33,719 bases of DNA. Source: a virus. A program made the position numbers and the translations under genes. Of the stretch, positions 4,640 through 25,576 are shown piece by piece. The stretch spans positions 1 through 33,719 of IMG/VR virus record IMGVR_UViG_3300017605_000525. One strand, written 5' to 3'. The notes below the pieces were generated by a model that saw only the letters and a program-made list of their open reading frames with translations, was not told where the DNA came from and made no database searches. Numbering within the stretch: the stretch's first letter is position 1; each line of letters opens with the position of its first letter.

Positions 4640-4870
4640 ATGCACTACAAGAACGGGAGAGAAGCGAAGAACGGCGACAAGGTCATGATCGTGGACGGCT
4701 ACAGCAAGGGGATGGTCGGCATCCTCTACGACGCGACGCCGGGCAACGATTACTGCAACGGAAAACTGGCGATCCTCTCCGCCACGCCGCCGTGTCCGAA
4801 TCTGAAGGAGTGCCTGCACCTCGACGACGTGGTCGCAGCGGCCGACAAGTCCGCGACGCCGGCGAACTGA
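4640..4870 (+). CDS. Small hypothetical protein
   Basis: A 76-residue protein is preceded by AAAGGAG at 4627-4633, six bases from the ATG. It begins MHYKNGREAKNGDKVMI. 'REAKNGDKVMIVDGYSKGMVGILYD' looks like a small beta-barrel (SH3/KOW-like) fold, and three cysteines are near the middle (Cys39, Cys52, Cys58 approximately). Such small proteins are common in phage late regions. No function is claimed. It ends one base before the GTG of the spanin-like gene. Confidence 0.6.
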   Translation: MHYKNGREAKNGDKVMIVDGYSKGMVGILYDATPGNDYCNGKLAILSATPPCPNLKECLHLDDVVAAADKSATPAN

Positions 4871-4871
4871 C

Positions 4872-5615
4872 GTGACCGCCCGCCGCCTCGTTCCTCTGAT
4901 CGCCTTCATCGCGCTGGCGATCTACGCCGGCGTCCTCAGCTGGCAACTCGATCGAGCTCAAGGGCGCGAGCTCGCCGCGCGCGTGGCGATCCAGAAAACG
5001 AAGCTCGAAGCCGCGGGCTGGGAGCAAGCCGCCGAGAAATCCCAGCGCGAGCTCGCCACGGCGGTCCCGGCGCTAGAGAAGGAGATCGAGGCGGCCAAGG
5101 CGGCGAAGGTTCCGATGCTCGCGAGCAACCGGACCAAGACGGACACGGTGACATTCGACATCCCGCTGGGGATCGAACCCCCATCGCCAGCGGCCGGAGC
5201 TGGGGAGACGGCTGCGGCCGCTTCTCCCCAGCCGACCGGGACCACGGCGCCGGTCGGCGTGAGCGCCGACGTGCAGACCGCGGTCGTCGGACTCGATGAC
5301 GGCACGATCGAATGGAAGAGCCGCGTCTTTGCGACCGTCTCGTGGGGTGCGTTGAAGGTCCCTGGAGAGTGCGGAAAAGGTGAGCCGTGCGAGACGAAGG
5401 AGCTTCCGGTTAAGACCGCGAAGTCGACAACGGGGGTCGATCCGGACCTGGTGGCGGCGTGGAAGGCGTTCAAGAACCCGCCACCGAGGTTCGCGATCCT
5501 CCCGCGCGGGATCACGAAGTGGCGGGCGGGATGGTTCGTCGGGCCCGGGCTCGCGGTCGCGCTCGATGGCCGGGTGAGCGCGGGGGTGCTGGTCGGTTGG
5601 GGGGTGCAGCTGTGA
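4872..5615 (+). CDS. Membrane-anchored coiled-coil protein, Rz/spanin-like candidate
   Basis: This 247-residue protein starts at GTG. Residues 5-24 ('RLVPLIAFIALAIYAGVLSW') form an N-terminal membrane anchor with N-in orientation. A charged Ala/Glu/Lys-rich coiled coil follows at about 25-80, then a Pro/Ala/Gly-rich linker (about 100-130) and a C-terminal region ending in an apolar 'GWFVGPGLAVALDG' segment. The arrangement of anchor, coiled coil and periplasmic tail next to an endolysin and holin fits an inner-membrane spanin (Rz) analogue, although it is longer than typical Rz. A similar topology also occurs in phage-encoded phospholipid- or outer-membrane-interacting proteins that have no lysis role. 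Confidence 0.55.
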   Translation: MTARRLVPLIAFIALAIYAGVLSWQLDRAQGRELAARVAIQKTKLEAAGWEQAAEKSQRELATAVPALEKEIEAAKAAKVPMLASNRTKTDTVTFDIPLGIEPPSPAAGAGETAAAASPQPTGTTAPVGVSADVQTAVVGLDDGTIEWKSRVFATVSWGALKVPGECGKGEPCETKELPVKTAKSTTGVDPDLVAAWKAFKNPPPRFAILPRGITKWRAGWFVGPGLAVALDGRVSAGVLVGWGVQL

Positions 5616-5953
5616 AGCTCACGGACCTGAACCCGCGATGGATTGGGGCCGGCGGCTCTGGGGTTACGCAGAACGGACAGCCCGTGCCGCGCCGCGAAGG
5701 CGTCGGCGTGATGTTCAATTGCCCATGCGGCAAGCACGGCGACGACAACCCCGTCTACGTGCCATTCGCGAATCCGCTCGATGGGGGGCCGGCCTACGAC
5801 CCTAAACCCGGCCGTGGCTGGCAGCGCACCGGCGACACGTTCGAGACGCTCACCCTGACGCCTTCGATTCTTCGCGTTCCGTCTGGCGATGGGCCTTGGG
5901 ATTGCGCGTGGCACGGCTTCATCACCAACGGCGAGATCCAACACTGCGGATAA
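5612..5953 (+). CDS. DUF6527 family protein
   Basis: A 113-residue protein starts at GTG 5612, which overlaps the previous stop (GTGA). It shows the DUF6527 pattern: 'NPRWIGAGG', 'GVMFNCPCGKHG', 'FANPLDGGP', 'WQRTGDTFETLTLTPSI' and 'CAWHGFITNGEI' near the end. The conserved Cys/His residues (CPCG-x2-H and C-x2-H) suggest a metal-binding site. The family is common in prophages and phages and has no established biochemical role. It is the last gene before the attachment site. Confidence 0.8.
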   Translation: MKLTDLNPRWIGAGGSGVTQNGQPVPRREGVGVMFNCPCGKHGDDNPVYVPFANPLDGGPAYDPKPGRGWQRTGDTFETLTLTPSILRVPSGDGPWDCAWHGFITNGEIQHCG

Positions 5954-5974
5954 ATTCCGTGGGCCGGGTGACGC

Positions 5975-6100
5975 GGTTTGAACCGGTGCGAACCGGCATC
6001 AGGCGGGCGAAAGTGCATTCCGGCATAACGGCATAACCCCCAACAATTCAACGGCGTGGGTGCGAACCGGGACCAACCGGTGCGAAGCGGTGCGAAGCTT
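5975..6100 (+). repeat. Five arm-type repeats beside attP
   Basis: Direct copies of a 12-mer close to GGTGCGAACCGG are seen: GGTTTGAACCGG at 5975-5986, GGTGCGAACCGG at 5985-5996, GGTGCGAACCGG at 6059-6070, GGTGCGAAGCGG at 6079-6090 and GGTGCGAAGCTT at 6089-6100. Two pairs share two bases at their ends. They lie on the side of the tRNA-like core opposite the integrase gene, which is where arm-type sites for a tyrosine integrase (or its excisionase) are expected. Binding itself is inferred. Confidence 0.6.
6021..6036 (+). repeat. Tandem CGGCATAA pair in the attP arm
   Basis: Two adjacent copies of CGGCATAA at 6021-6028 and 6029-6036 sit between the two clusters of GGTGCGAACCGG-like repeats. 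Phased short direct repeats in an attP arm are typical of excisionase (Xis) sites. No other explanation is visible in this non-coding stretch. Confidence 0.4.
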
Positions 6101-20948: not shown

Positions 20949-21364
20949 AGCTCTCACTCCCACCGACAGAGCTGTGGCCGAACGCCAGGCCGCACCGCAT
21001 GGCCAAGGCGCGGGCCGTCAAGGCCTACCGCCACGAAGCCGCGATCATCTCGAAGCAGGCTCTCGGCCGAACGCGCCCACCGCGATGGACGGCCGCGTCG
21101 ATCGAGGCGACGTTCTACTTCCCGACCGTGCGGCGCCGAGACCCCGACAACTGCCTCGCCGCGCTCAAGGCCGCGTTCGACGGCCTGCGTGACGCCGGCG
21201 TGATCGCGGATGACAACCGGTTGACGCATCTCCCGATTCGCGTAGGCGGCCGTGTCCCCGGCGGCGCCGTGGACCTACGGATCGAGCCCACCTCCCGGGC
21301 CCCCGCCGCTTCCCCGGTTACCCCCATGCGTGGGGTGCAGACGTCTGCAAAGGCGGCGCGATGA
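20939..21364 (+). CDS. rusA: RusA-family Holliday-junction resolvase
   Basis: The start GTG 20939 follows GGAGG (20927-20931) by seven bases and gives 141 residues; a second GTG at 20945 overlaps the previous stop and is also possible. The RusA signature is clear in 'RRRDPDNCLAALKAAFDGLR', where the Asp residues bind metal, and in the following 'DAGVIADDNRL'. These enzymes cleave Holliday junctions in phage recombination and replication. It belongs with the nuclease, Sak4-like and SSB genes upstream. The C-terminus is Pro/Ala-rich and extends past the usual family end. Confidence 0.85.
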   Translation: MLVKLSLPPTELWPNARPHRMAKARAVKAYRHEAAIISKQALGRTRPPRWTAASIEATFYFPTVRRRDPDNCLAALKAAFDGLRDAGVIADDNRLTHLPIRVGGRVPGGAVDLRIEPTSRAPAASPVTPMRGVQTSAKAAR

Positions 21365-21849
21365 CGCCGCCCGGTATGCTCGTGGCAGGTCGTCGGGTGG
21401 TGGCGAAGGCGTCCCCTGGGTATGGGCCGAACGGTCGCCGCCTCTGTCGCTGGTGCCATCAGGAAGTCCCGGCTGGCCGTCGCCGGACCTGGTGTAGCGA
21501 CCGATGCGTGCAGGAATACCGCTCAATCGCGGCTCCGCGCGAAGCCGTGTTTGAACGCGATCGTGGTGTTTGCGCGAGCTGCGGGTTCGACACCGAGCGG
21601 TTGAGGCGAGTTCTGCGTCATGCGGCGCGCGCGCTCGCCAATGCCCACGGTATCGGATGCGTCTACGAGATCAACCAGTGGGTCGAGGAGTTTATGGGTC
21701 TGAACGCGCAGCGCACGCTCTGGGAGGCCGACCACGTCGTGCCGGTGATCGAGGGCGGGACGGTCGCTCTCGAAAACCTGCGGACGCTCTGTGTGGATTG
21801 CCACAAGCGCGAGACGGCGAAGCTGCGCCGTCGGTTGGCGGCGCGATGA
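21361..21849 (+). CDS. HNH endonuclease
   Basis: The 162-residue protein overlaps the RusA stop (ATGA). An N-terminal zinc knuckle ('LCRWCHQEVPAGRRRTWCSD', then 'RC') is followed by the HNH core: 'ADHVVPVIEGG', 'ALENLRTLCVDCHKRETAKL'. It contains the DHV and the later 'C-x2-CH', the typical metal site. The gene is on the same strand and coupled to its neighbours, so it is probably a phage DNA-processing nuclease and not a freshly inserted homing gene. The target is unknown. Confidence 0.85.
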   Translation: MTPPGMLVAGRRVVAKASPGYGPNGRRLCRWCHQEVPAGRRRTWCSDRCVQEYRSIAAPREAVFERDRGVCASCGFDTERLRRVLRHAARALANAHGIGCVYEINQWVEEFMGLNAQRTLWEADHVVPVIEGGTVALENLRTLCVDCHKRETAKLRRRLAAR

Positions 21850-22112
21850 CCGCGAAGTGCCATGTCTGCGGGACGCGCGAGCCCGAGAATCCGTCCGCGC
21901 CGCACCCGGTCTGCCACGCCTGCCGCAATTCGATCTGGGAGTGGACCCACCGCAAAGAGGCCGACTTGGTCGCGCTCGAACGCGAGGCGACGGCGCGATT
22001 GTACCGGGCGATCATCGCGCTCCGGCGCGTCCACGCGGCACGCCGCGGCGTCGGTTCACTGTCGACATTCCACCCCCCTCCAAACCTGGCGAGCTCTTCA
22101 CAGCCCGCGTAA
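21846..22112 (+). CDS. Small zinc-ribbon protein
   Basis: An 88-residue protein overlaps the HNH stop (ATGA). 'CHVCGTREPENPSAPHPVCH' with a following 'AC' gives a CxxC...CxxC ribbon. A basic helix with 'REATARLYRAIIALRRVHAA' follows, then a low-complexity tail. Function unknown. Confidence 0.55.
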   Translation: MTAKCHVCGTREPENPSAPHPVCHACRNSIWEWTHRKEADLVALEREATARLYRAIIALRRVHAARRGVGSLSTFHPPPNLASSSQPA

Positions 22113-22319
22113 CCGGCCCTACCGTCCGCGCCGTCAAGCCTCCGGAACCGAGGACGACGGCGTGTGACGCGATCCGCTGCAGCAGCCCGAGCGACGAAGC
22201 CACCGATCGGTGAGCTCGTTCCCGTTGCCCGCCTCGCGACGATGGCGTCGGCGTACAACCCGCGCTCGCTCGACGATCACGGCATGGCCGCGCTGCGCCG
22301 ATCGATGCGGCAGTTCGGC

Positions 22320-22862
22320 CTAGCGCTGGCCTGCTGCCTGGCGGCGGGTGTTCCAGCCGCCGCCGAGCTTGCGACCGTGAACGCGGGAGTGACAGTCCAC
22401 GCAGATCGCGATCCCGTTACTCAACGCGAACCTGAGCTTCGGGAAGTCGGCCCACGGCTTGACGTGGTGGGCGTGGATGTTCTCCACGGAGCCGCACTCT
22501 TGGCAGCGTCCACCGTCGCGCTCAATCACAGCTTTCTTCCACCGACGCAGTTCGATGTTCAACCGCCCGCGCTCGGTACGGAACGAACCGCCGCCCTTCC
22601 AGGACGTGGAGCGCGGCCCAACCATGTCGGCCTTGGCGCAGGACATCGAGCAATACCGCGAGCGATCGGCGTCGACGCGGAACTCCGCCTTACATCGCAG
22701 GCATTCAGCGCGCGGGGCACGGCGACCCCAGCAGGCGCGGGAACAGAACTTCGAAGTCTCGGCGCGGCAGGTGTGTTGTTCGTAGCTCGCTCCGCAAATC
22801 GTGCAGACGAGCGTGACGCGAGAACGTCGGGAGAGAACGGGTTTTCCTTTGATGGCTGGCAT
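22320..22862 (-). CDS. HNH homing-type endonuclease, antisense insert
   Basis: The 180-residue protein has two N-terminal zinc knuckles ('VCTICGASYEQHTCRAETSK', then 'FCSRACWG', 'CLRCKAEFRVDADRSRYCSM'). The C-terminal HNH nuclease follows: 'CQECGSVENIHAHHVKPWAD', 'LSNGIAICVDCHSRVHG'. This is the standard phage HNH homing-endonuclease layout. It is the only minus-strand gene in the rightward block and lies exactly between the two ends of a methyltransferase gene. The start codon overlaps an inverted repeat (22862-22880). No intron or intein features were found around it. Confidence 0.9.
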   Translation of the reverse strand: MPAIKGKPVLSRRSRVTLVCTICGASYEQHTCRAETSKFCSRACWGRRAPRAECLRCKAEFRVDADRSRYCSMSCAKADMVGPRSTSWKGGGSFRTERGRLNIELRRWKKAVIERDGGRCQECGSVENIHAHHVKPWADFPKLRFALSNGIAICVDCHSRVHGRKLGGGWNTRRQAAGQR

Positions 22863-22880
22863 TGCGAGAGTTTATCGCAA
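22862..22880. repeat. TTGCGA inverted repeat at the HNH start
   Basis: TTGCGA (22862-22867) and TCGCAA (22875-22880) are perfect arms around a seven-base spacer, overlapping the HNH start codon; a further TTGCGA is at 22892-22897. It may be an operator or a boundary sequence of the insertion. Confidence 0.4.
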
Positions 22881-22960
22881 CGCGCCTCGTATTGCGACGT
22901 GATCGTCCAGCGCTGGGAGGCGTTCACCGGCAAGAAGGCGAAGCGCCCGCGGAGATCTCG

Positions 22961-23452
22961 GTGAGCTTCTACGGTGCGCGGTCGTCGCACTCGTCCGGCT
23001 CCGCGCTCGCCCGGGCCCGGATCGCCGCGGGGCTCACGCAGGCCGAGCTCGCGGACAAAGCACATGTTTCCAGGCCGACGATCGGCTGGATCGAGTCCGG
23101 CCGAACGAAGCGTCCGCGGCTCGGAACGGCAACACCGATCGCGCTCGCTCTCGGCCTCACGATCGCCGATCTCTGGCCGACGCTTGCGAAGGCGATCAAG
23201 CGCGGCCGGCTCCTCGATACGGTAATCCCGATCGAGACGGCCGTTGCGAAGAACCGAGCGAGCTACCGGCACGGGATGCGGCTCGCTTACTCGGACCCCG
23301 AGGGCGGCGTGCGCGTGAGGCACACCCATCGCCCGCCGTTTTGTTGCGGCGAGACCTGGTGCCGGTGCGTCGTGCTCGACGAGCCGGAGACGTATCCGAT
23401 CTTCGGGGATCCGAGCCTGATCGAGTTCGCCGCAGGCGGAGTGAATGGCTGA
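22961..23452 (+). CDS. XRE-family HTH regulator with Cys-rich C-terminus
   Basis: The 163-residue protein starts at GTG 22961, overlapping the methyltransferase tail stop (GTGA). Residues about 15-70 form an HTH_3 domain: 'RARIAAGLTQAELADKAHVS', 'RPTIGWIESGRTKRPRL', 'LALGLTIADLW'. The C-terminal part has 'FCCGETWCRC', a possible metal site. It could control late or packaging genes, which begin immediately downstream. Confidence 0.75.
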   Translation: MSFYGARSSHSSGSALARARIAAGLTQAELADKAHVSRPTIGWIESGRTKRPRLGTATPIALALGLTIADLWPTLAKAIKRGRLLDTVIPIETAVAKNRASYRHGMRLAYSDPEGGVRVRHTHRPPFCCGETWCRCVVLDEPETYPIFGDPSLIEFAAGGVNG

Positions 23453-24017
23453 TGCGCCGCGCTGTGCAGCTCGGAGCAAGCGCAGCGGCCGCACTTGCCG
23501 CATGTTCGCTCTTCGCCTCCCTGGCGGTGGCCACACCAAACATTGCCGGATGCACGGCGGCAAGAACGAACGCGCTGCTCCAGGCGATCCGATCCGCGGT
23601 GGCCGGCCCCCGACGACCTTTCGCTATTCGACGTTCATGCGTACCGACGAGGACAAGGCGCTCTACGAATCTGCCCGGAGCGCCCTCGGCACGCTCGATG
23701 AGGAGCTCAACCTCGCCCGCACGAATCTCGAGCGCTTCCGGCGATCGCGCGAGGAGCAAGCGAAGGGCGGCATTCCGCTCTCCGTGGCCGACGGAGGGAA
23801 GAGCGTGTCGGTCCGGCCGTACGCCGAGATCGAGACGCACTACCTCGACCTCATCCGCCGCCTCGAGGAAGGCCGCAAGAAGCTCATGGCTGCCGGCGCC
23901 GTCGACAACGACGACGCGGAGACGTATCGCGAATGGCTAAGCGCCACACGCAAGCCGGACGATTCCTCCTCGGGCTCGGGGCCATCCTCGCCGCCCTCAT
24001 CCCCGTCGGAGCGGTGA
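23445..24017 (+). CDS. Terminase small subunit-like protein (HGGK type)
   Basis: The 190-residue protein has an N-terminal Cys/His motif 'CAARSKRSGRTCRMF', then 'HCRMHGGKN', the C...C...C-x2-HGG pattern of many phage small terminase or packaging proteins. The middle is helical and coiled ('YAEIETHYLDLIRRLEEGRK'), and the C-terminus is a Ser/Pro-rich tail. It immediately precedes the large terminase gene, which supports the small-subunit reading. The fold is not confirmed from sequence alone. Confidence 0.65.
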   Translation: MADAPRCAARSKRSGRTCRMFALRLPGGGHTKHCRMHGGKNERAAPGDPIRGGRPPTTFRYSTFMRTDEDKALYESARSALGTLDEELNLARTNLERFRRSREEQAKGGIPLSVADGGKSVSVRPYAEIETHYLDLIRRLEEGRKKLMAAGAVDNDDAETYREWLSATRKPDDSSSGSGPSSPPSSPSER

Positions 24018-25576
24018 CGGTGCCGATCTCGCGCGAGGATCGGATCGGCGCCGTCCGGGATCCCGAGTACCACCGGCACCTGATGTTCTCGAAGGGCGAT
24101 CGCGCCCGCGAGCTCGCGATGGGCCGGGAGCTGGGCCCCCACGAACGACAAGCCCGCCTCCCACGGCCGCAGCTGGAGATCGTCCGCCGCGTCGAGCGCG
24201 CGATCGCGGATCGCACCGGCGACGTGATCAGCGTTCTCATGGCGCGGCAGTCCGGGAAGAACGAGTGCGAGGGCTTCCTCGAATCGCGCGCGCTGTCCAT
24301 CTGGCGCGGGATCCCGGGGAGCAATTGGATCCGCACGGCGCCCACGCTCAAGCCTCAGCTCGTCAACTCGAAGCTCCGACTCGAAAAGCACCTGATGCAT
24401 GACCCGCTCACGCGCGGCCGCTGGGCCAAGCGCGAGGGCTACATCTACGAATCGGGTGATGCGCAGATCCAGTTCCTCTCGGCCGGCCCGAACGCGAACG
24501 TCGTCGGCGCGACCGCGTCGATCGCGCTCTCCGTCGACGAGGCCCACAAGATCGACAAGGGGAAGTTCGACGAGGACCTCGCCCCGTTCACGGCGTCGAC
24601 GAACGCGCCGACGATCCTGTGGGGCGTCGCAGCCGACAAGCTCGACATGCTCCACGAGTATCGGGAGAAGGCCGCCGGCACCGATCGCGTCCTCGTCTAC
24701 CCCGCGGAAGTCTGGTGCGAGCTGTCGCCAGCGTACCGCGGCCACTACGAAGAGCGCGTCCGGCACCTCGGCGGCCACGATCACCCGATCATCCTCACGC
24801 AGTACCGGCTGATCCCGGTCGAATCGCAAGGCGCCTTCCTGAACGACATCCGCCGCGCCGCGCTCTTCGCCGGCGATCACCCCCGCCTCGAAGCGCCCCG
24901 CACCGGTATGGCCTACGGGATCATCATCGACATCGGCGGCGAGTCCGAGCAGGAGCTCGACGACGCCGAGCTGCGCCAGGTCGAACCCGAACGTGACTAC
25001 ACCATGGCGTGGATCCTCGAATGGGATCCGCGGCAGGCCTTCGGCGTCGATGGCAAGCGCGACGTCCGCGTGGTGAACGGCATCTGGTGGACCGGCAAGT
25101 CGCACATGGCCGTCCTCCCCGAGCTCGTGACGCTCTGCAAGACGTGGGGCGTGCGCAGCGGCGTCTCAGACGCGCGCGGCGTCGGCGAAGCCGTCGCCAT
25201 GGCGCTCGAGAAGAAGATCCCGGCCGTCAAGGGCTACAAGGCCAGCCAGCAGGACGTCTCCGACGACTGCTACGCGACGCTCGCCTGGATTGATTGCGGC
25301 CGGCTGAAGTTCTGGAAGGGGAACGCCGCCGAGGACGAGCAGCTGCGCGAGATGCAGGCGCAGGCGCGGCACACCCGCTACCAGATCCGTGGCCATCAGC
25401 AGATGCGCCTCGCGAAGCCCACCGGGGCGGCCACACGGGGCCTGCACATCGACGGCGTGAAGGCGCTGACCTACATGCACCGCGCGTTCGAGGAGTCGAG
25501 CGCTGCGGCCTACATCGAGTTCCTCGATCGCCAGCTCGACAAGCAAAAGGCCGAGCTCGAAAAAGGGGAGGCGTAG
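24014..25576 (+). CDS. terL: Terminase large subunit (ATPase-nuclease)
   Basis: The protein has about 520 residues. Walker A is 'LMARQSGKNE', Walker B is 'IALSVDEAHK', and the nuclease aspartates appear in 'IIIDIGGES' and 'VSDARGVGE'. It packages DNA into proheads. The preferred start, GTG 24014, overlaps the small-subunit stop (GTGA); a GTG at 24020 with GGAG eight bases upstream is also good. An in-frame ATG at 23933 would add 27 residues ('RFLLGLGAILAALIPVGAV'), a hydrophobic segment out of place in a soluble terminase and an 85-base overlap, so I do not favour it, although it cannot be excluded. Confidence 0.9.
   Translation: MTVPISREDRIGAVRDPEYHRHLMFSKGDRARELAMGRELGPHERQARLPRPQLEIVRRVERAIADRTGDVISVLMARQSGKNECEGFLESRALSIWRGIPGSNWIRTAPTLKPQLVNSKLRLEKHLMHDPLTRGRWAKREGYIYESGDAQIQFLSAGPNANVVGATASIALSVDEAHKIDKGKFDEDLAPFTASTNAPTILWGVAADKLDMLHEYREKAAGTDRVLVYPAEVWCELSPAYRGHYEERVRHLGGHDHPIILTQYRLIPVESQGAFLNDIRRAALFAGDHPRLEAPRTGMAYGIIIDIGGESEQELDDAELRQVEPERDYTMAWILEWDPRQAFGVDGKRDVRVVNGIWWTGKSHMAVLPELVTLCKTWGVRSGVSDARGVGEAVAMALEKKIPAVKGYKASQQDVSDDCYATLAWIDCGRLKFWKGNAAEDEQLREMQAQARHTRYQIRGHQQMRLAKPTGAATRGLHIDGVKALTYMHRAFEESSAAAYIEFLDRQLDKQKAELEKGEA

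Follow-up and report, generated by a model that had tools for sequence, protein, structure and literature searches.

The stretch of DNA analysed here, hereafter the window, is the whole of a 33,719-base virus record, an uncultivated virus contig whose junctions are taken as given by its assembly. Its plus strand carries a frame of 266 codons, opened by a GTG and closed by a TGA, which contains an HNH endonuclease gene on the opposite strand (Table 1). The HNH protein was recognised by PF01844 (E 2.5e-8) and by phrog_1271 (E 3.6e-22). In the plus-strand frame, the first 53 codons match phrog_9353 (E 0.0022) and the profile of phrog_498 at positions 30-69 of 633 (E 0.068), the last ~26 codons match phrog_498 at positions 411-429 of 633 (E 0.0014), and protein-family searches gave no other match for the middle. 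With a methyltransferase HMM made from related loci, this same frame was matched at model positions 8-35 and 361-389 of 389 (E 1.6e-10); only these two parts remain, the catalytic motifs of the methyltransferase (DPPY, FxGSG) being absent. These results agree with the first-pass annotation, which had read a ParB-like start in the first ~53 codons, a methyltransferase C terminus in the last ~24 and, between these ends, the HNH as the only recognisable protein. The GTGA overlap with the following gene that it had described is present as well, at 22961-22964, where the TGA of the tail shares two of its bases with the GTG that opens the XRE gene (start offset of -4).

Table 1. Features of the window in and downstream of the composite frame.
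Feature	Position	Strand	Basis or remark
Composite stop-free host-strand frame	22164..22964	+	Methyltransferase start, codon-aligned HNH antisense, orphan tail
ParB-type DNA methyltransferase remnant, codons 1-53	22164..22322	+	phrog_9353/phrog_498 matches; identity to L002; HMM 8-35
HNH endonuclease gene, 180 aa, N-terminal Cys pairs and HNH core	22320..22862	-	PF01844, phrog_1271
Orphan copy (T2) of methyltransferase C terminus, SYCDVIVQRWEAFTGKKAKRPRRSR, stop included	22887..22964	+	phrog_498 411-429; HMM 361-389; L002 tail
XRE-family regulator	22961..23452	+	PF13560/PF01381; GTG overlaps tail stop
Likely small terminase subunit, next after XRE	23445..24017	+	Position only; no family match; 44% identical to L002 neighbour
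Likely large terminase subunit	23933..25576	+	Position; 67% identical to L002; no Pfam match

The names of the two terminase subunits are likely and were given by position. A scan of 22000-23100 for promoters and terminators found nothing, and when 21361-23460 was compared with GenBank phages by blastn, no match was obtained. A second, unrelated HNH gene (21361-21849, plus strand) lies ~500 bases upstream and is followed, with an ATGA overlap, by a small zinc-ribbon ORF (21846-22112), two HNH genes being present less than 2.6 kb from the likely terminase. A third frame, located where the zinc-ribbon ORF gives way to the methyltransferase gene, reads RRFTVDIPPPSKPGELFTARVTG (22050-22213); it has no family match and is possibly the remnant of another gene. 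Elsewhere in the window, a separate ParB-like gene of the same phage (15658-17271) encodes 537 aa and has both a ParB_N and an HTH_ParB domain.

The closest relative of the window found in IMG/VR, and the one close relative obtained by terminase-based searches, is the contig L002, in which an intact ParB-methyltransferase of 419 aa (4779-6038) is followed by XRE, TerS-like and TerL-like genes, with no HNH. An intact homologue having the same downstream genes and free of the nuclease, which the first-pass annotation had suggested looking for, is then available. The N-terminal piece of the window is 62% identical to the N terminus of the L002 protein over 34 aa and the C-terminal piece 71% identical to its C terminus over 21 aa (17/26 identical residues for the whole orphan tail), and the window XRE is 45% identical to the product of the gene after the L002 methyltransferase. 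Since both pieces match the two ends of a single L002 ORF, they belong to one gene, which settles the question of whether they could derive from different ones. The composite ORF shares both ends with the phage ParB-type DNA methyltransferase (phrog_498) and is missing its catalytic middle, ~340 codons including the catalytic motifs, in line with the several hundred target codons previously thought to be gone.

The minus-strand gene appears to be a free-standing HNH endonuclease of homing type, the homing activity itself being what we infer from sequence. By profile search, the closest solved HNH is the GVE2-type HNH endonuclease (5h0m/5h0o, E 1.1e-7), a protein of 130 aa which aligned to profile positions 50-155 only, leaving the N-terminal Cys-rich part of the family uncovered. 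A group I intron was ruled out by an Rfam search of the window, L003, L006, L013, L091 and L158, which gave no match, and an intein by the position of the nuclease on the strand opposite to the host gene. In its sequence and placement the window HNH has the features of the mob-type homing endonucleases, described for T4-like phages as mobA-mobE, with mobE inserted in nrdA of Aeromonas phage Aeh1 (review PMC2988022). Both have an HNH nuclease with zinc-binding extensions, neither an intron nor an intein, a location within or beside a phage gene whose counterpart in related phages is HNH-free, and start/stop overlaps and translational coupling that matter. Unlike the mob-type genes, the window HNH is antisense to its host gene, is accompanied by a duplicated host-gene tail and leaves a stop-free, codon-aligned frame on the host strand. 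It retains all invariant residues of alignments A1 and A3 and is full-length for its branch, being, like the proteins of L004, L020 and L014, without the C-terminal Cys-rich extension of L003-type proteins, so that it may still be active.

When HNH relatives were fetched from viral and bacterial contigs (29-48% identity to the window HNH), an HNH antisense at a methyltransferase 3' end was found in 14 other distinct loci (L003, L004, L006, L013, L017, L018, L019, L020, L021, L022, L023, L038, L087 and L096). This recurrent home of the HNH had been missed in the first reading of the window. The methyltransferase is complete in most of the 14 loci, L023 being cut by the contig end and L004 keeping only a tail fragment. 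The HNH stop is usually within the last methyltransferase codons. On the far side of the HNH start, the last 20-35 methyltransferase codons are often present a second time (T2); this copy begins close to the Tyr conserved in the YCDVIV motif and typically abuts or overlaps the next gene. Identity between the gene's own tail (T1) and T2 averages 57% within a locus and 30% between loci, which indicates that T2 derives from this gene or from a close relative of it. A second locus without a methyltransferase body is L004:4480-5228, where a frameshifted tail fragment lies beside the HNH and T2 beyond it. In the bacterial contig L091 (1814-3555), the HNH is co-oriented with the methyltransferase, and its frame continues at the C terminus into the extra tail (T2), the two being fused; judged by its sequence, this is a second orientation at the same site.

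None of 80 further viral methyltransferase loci scanned had an HNH at the 3' end, indicating that the HNH is an invader and does not normally belong to the operon. Occupation of the site is rare, and the association of HNH and methyltransferase is seen from the HNH side only. In tblastn searches of GenBank phages with three HNH and two methyltransferase queries, no second antisense case was present among the matches listed, which held only distant HNHs and the Escherichia phage BUCT618. In this phage (OM735461.1, 36396-38258; L158:3570-5432) an HNH is contained in a 620-aa methyltransferase ORF, on the same strand and in another frame, the ORF being annotated only as a site-specific DNA-methyltransferase. 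The methyltransferase ORF has 0 stops across its HNH (P0 0.022 when its own codons are shuffled), and may be another example of an invader through which the host frame has stayed open.

The frame of the host strand through the HNH was open and codon-aligned in 13 of the 15 loci (the window and the 14 others), which had been chosen by HNH position and not by openness; the continuous plus-strand ORF of the window is consequently no accident of high G+C. The open frame extends across essentially the whole HNH and is in register with T2 in the window and in nine other T2 loci; the contig-end-cut L026 is the exception, its T2-like tail lying in another frame. In this register, the stops of the antisense frame are the sense codons TTA, CTA and TCA of the HNH. 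Relative to expectations taken from long ORFs of the same contig, a single one of these codons was found among the 300 Leu and Ser codons of the HNHs of the 13 loci, against 54.7 expected, whereas 58 control HNHs from the same searches had 192 in 757 against 157.9 expected (Fisher p 5e-30 for the 13 antisense loci versus the 58 controls). A within-gene codon shuffle would be unfit to test such avoidance, since it preserves the depleted codon usage. Taken singly, the observed and expected numbers were 0 and 10.3 for CTA, 0 and 9.4 for TTA, and 1 and 33.6 for TCA. Other codons were commoner than expected in the antisense HNHs, namely CTT (49 versus 20.1) and TCT (62 versus 20.8), and the A-ending codons of Val, Pro, Thr, Ala, Gly and Arg showed no depletion. 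The third positions of most antisense HNHs are more A+T-rich than the background, so that base composition opposes the depletion of the three codons, and the frame is also open where the HNH has only 34-36% G+C. In the G+C-rich window alone, 1.75 avoided codons are expected (P0 0.16) and its own count is not significant; the case for openness therefore rests on the family.

In L017 and L019 the HNH placement is present and the frame is not open. When these two loci are added, the avoided codons rise to 7 (1 + 4 + 2), the deficit being still large. In L017 the next gene is preceded by a strong hairpin (-27.9 kcal/mol, z -5), and in L019 the frame is interrupted without evident reason. The HNH of L014, which is nested among the open genes in the tree and has no methyltransferase adjacent, contains four avoided codons. 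Among HNHs antisense to both flanks in a different gene neighbourhood (L015, L072, L027 and L053), two are open and two are not, few stops being expected there.

The openness is not accompanied by conservation of an antisense protein. Compared with synonymous shuffles, the antisense proteins gave a mean z of -0.03 over 53 gene pairs, the codon identity at shared HNH residues was close to the random expectation, and no match to protein families was obtained with the antisense products except for the methyltransferase tail. Since the antisense sequence shows no conservation other than that imposed by the HNH, openness is selected and not a protein. Moreover, synonymous sites are nearly randomised between lineages, from which it follows that each lineage kept the frame open by itself; this meets most of the concern about shared ancestry. 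That the openness of the host-strand frame is under selection is well supported by these data.

The frame usually begins at the methyltransferase stop and finishes at the start of the next gene. Twelve loci combine an open frame with a methyltransferase end, and in 9 of these the methyltransferase stop has an in-frame ATG at most 14 bases away (e.g., ATGA in L022 and ATGaaTAG in L004). At the other side, with next genes called as the longest nearby ORF, the next-gene start lies at -11 to +3 relative to where the antisense-frame stop ends in 9 of the 13 loci, as in the GTGA of the window, ATGGCTAA of L003, ATGA of L087 and L096, and TAAcccATG of L020. As far as can be judged from the letters, the geometry on both sides is the pattern of translational coupling, and a plausible reason for the openness would be the passage of ribosomes, which would keep the downstream genes (XRE and terminase in the window) expressed.

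Taken together, these data suggest the following course of events. An HNH lineage repeatedly occupies the 3' ends of phage methyltransferase genes, mostly antisense to the operon, and insertion typically leaves the methyltransferase complete up to and including T1, followed by an antisense HNH and often T2. If left untranslated, the ~600 bases of the insertion would disconnect the downstream genes, and for this reason the HNH would be selected for a stop-free frame on the host strand. Ribosomes could end and restart at the methyltransferase stop, traverse the antisense of the HNH, stop at the end of T2 and re-initiate at the next gene, a crossing that would spare the downstream genes polarity or loss of coupling. 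In the window, a later deletion would have removed the methyltransferase body with T1 and brought codons 1-53 into an in-frame fusion with the bridge, the resulting 266-codon frame still leading to XRE and the following genes. We give this whole explanation (a homing-type HNH, a stop-free bridge and a later loss of the body) a probability of about two in three.

Several other explanations of the open frame have to be weighed. It could be a by-product of base composition and shared ancestry in an ordinary antisense homing insertion, the methyltransferase middle being simply lost. Antisense insertion of a homing endonuclease gene is not unusual in itself, and the few stops expected in the G+C-rich window would fit; but the frames that are open at low G+C and the near absence of precisely TTA, CTA and TCA, which ancestry does not explain given synonymous sites almost at random between lineages, make this very unlikely. 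The antisense frame could also be a real overlapping protein gene, for instance a regulator of the nuclease, as could be suggested by its length of ~210-340 codons, its openness in 13 loci and the start codon often found at the methyltransferase stop. Antisense overlapping protein-coding genes are described in bacteria, such as pop opposite ompA (PMC7103648) and laoB (PMC5810103), and the long open frame opposite a real gene is common to them and to our loci. In contrast to pop and laoB, the frame described here stays open while its amino acids drift freely, and it joins the genes on both sides; the defining feature of this class, a conserved product, was not found in the HNH antisense frames, whose conservation does not exceed what the HNH sequence forces and whose family matches are limited to the methyltransferase tail. 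We accordingly regard an overlapping gene as quite improbable. An occasional longer methyltransferase fusion, in which a frameshift or read-through at T1 would carry translation along the antisense frame to T2, would give another reason to keep the frame, in agreement with its frequent overlap with the methyltransferase end and with BUCT618, whose HNH lies within a methyltransferase ORF open on the same strand in another frame. A complete enzyme, however, already ends at T1, the bridge sequence is not conserved, and the presence of start codons where the methyltransferase stops speaks for re-initiation, leaving such a fusion unlikely.

The arrangement of the window itself could be explained by an assembly join of two unrelated molecules, since the sequence is an uncultivated virus contig and its left junction coincides with the HNH stop codon. 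This is most improbable, because the right junction matches the HNH/T2 arrangement of other contigs, the left junction is in frame, L004 is also without a methyltransferase body, and neither an in-frame fusion nor a repeated pattern is predicted by a join. The tail of the window is an orphan T2, the methyltransferase body having probably been lost later. The body could instead have been lost during the insertion itself; the relatives, however, sit beside a full methyltransferase and an extra tail, and the body is lost in L004 too, so that the body seems to have disappeared in a step separate from the insertion. This arrangement makes two steps the more likely course, with a deletion as the putative second one. 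The replacement by a nuclease proposed in the first-pass annotation is thus retained in part: the catalytic middle is lost and the HNH lies between the two ends, but a replacement in one step is not what the relatives, including L004, point to.

In the open-access literature, to which the search was confined, nothing was found on antisense stop avoidance in homing endonucleases. From the present family, we think it probable that a class of selfish nuclease genes lying backwards in phage operons is strongly selected to be transparent to ribosomes, by means of a stop-free frame whose sequence is immaterial and which bridges the stop of one gene to the start of another. Introns and inteins lower their cost by splicing themselves out; if the proposed explanation is true, a selfish gene can also become less costly to its host genome when the opposite strand is left with a frame that ribosomes can read. 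Long stop-free antisense frames, which are usually dismissed or called new genes, would then become interpretable as translation bridges, and the codon signature (no TTA, CTA or TCA in the antisense gene) could be searched for across all phage operons.
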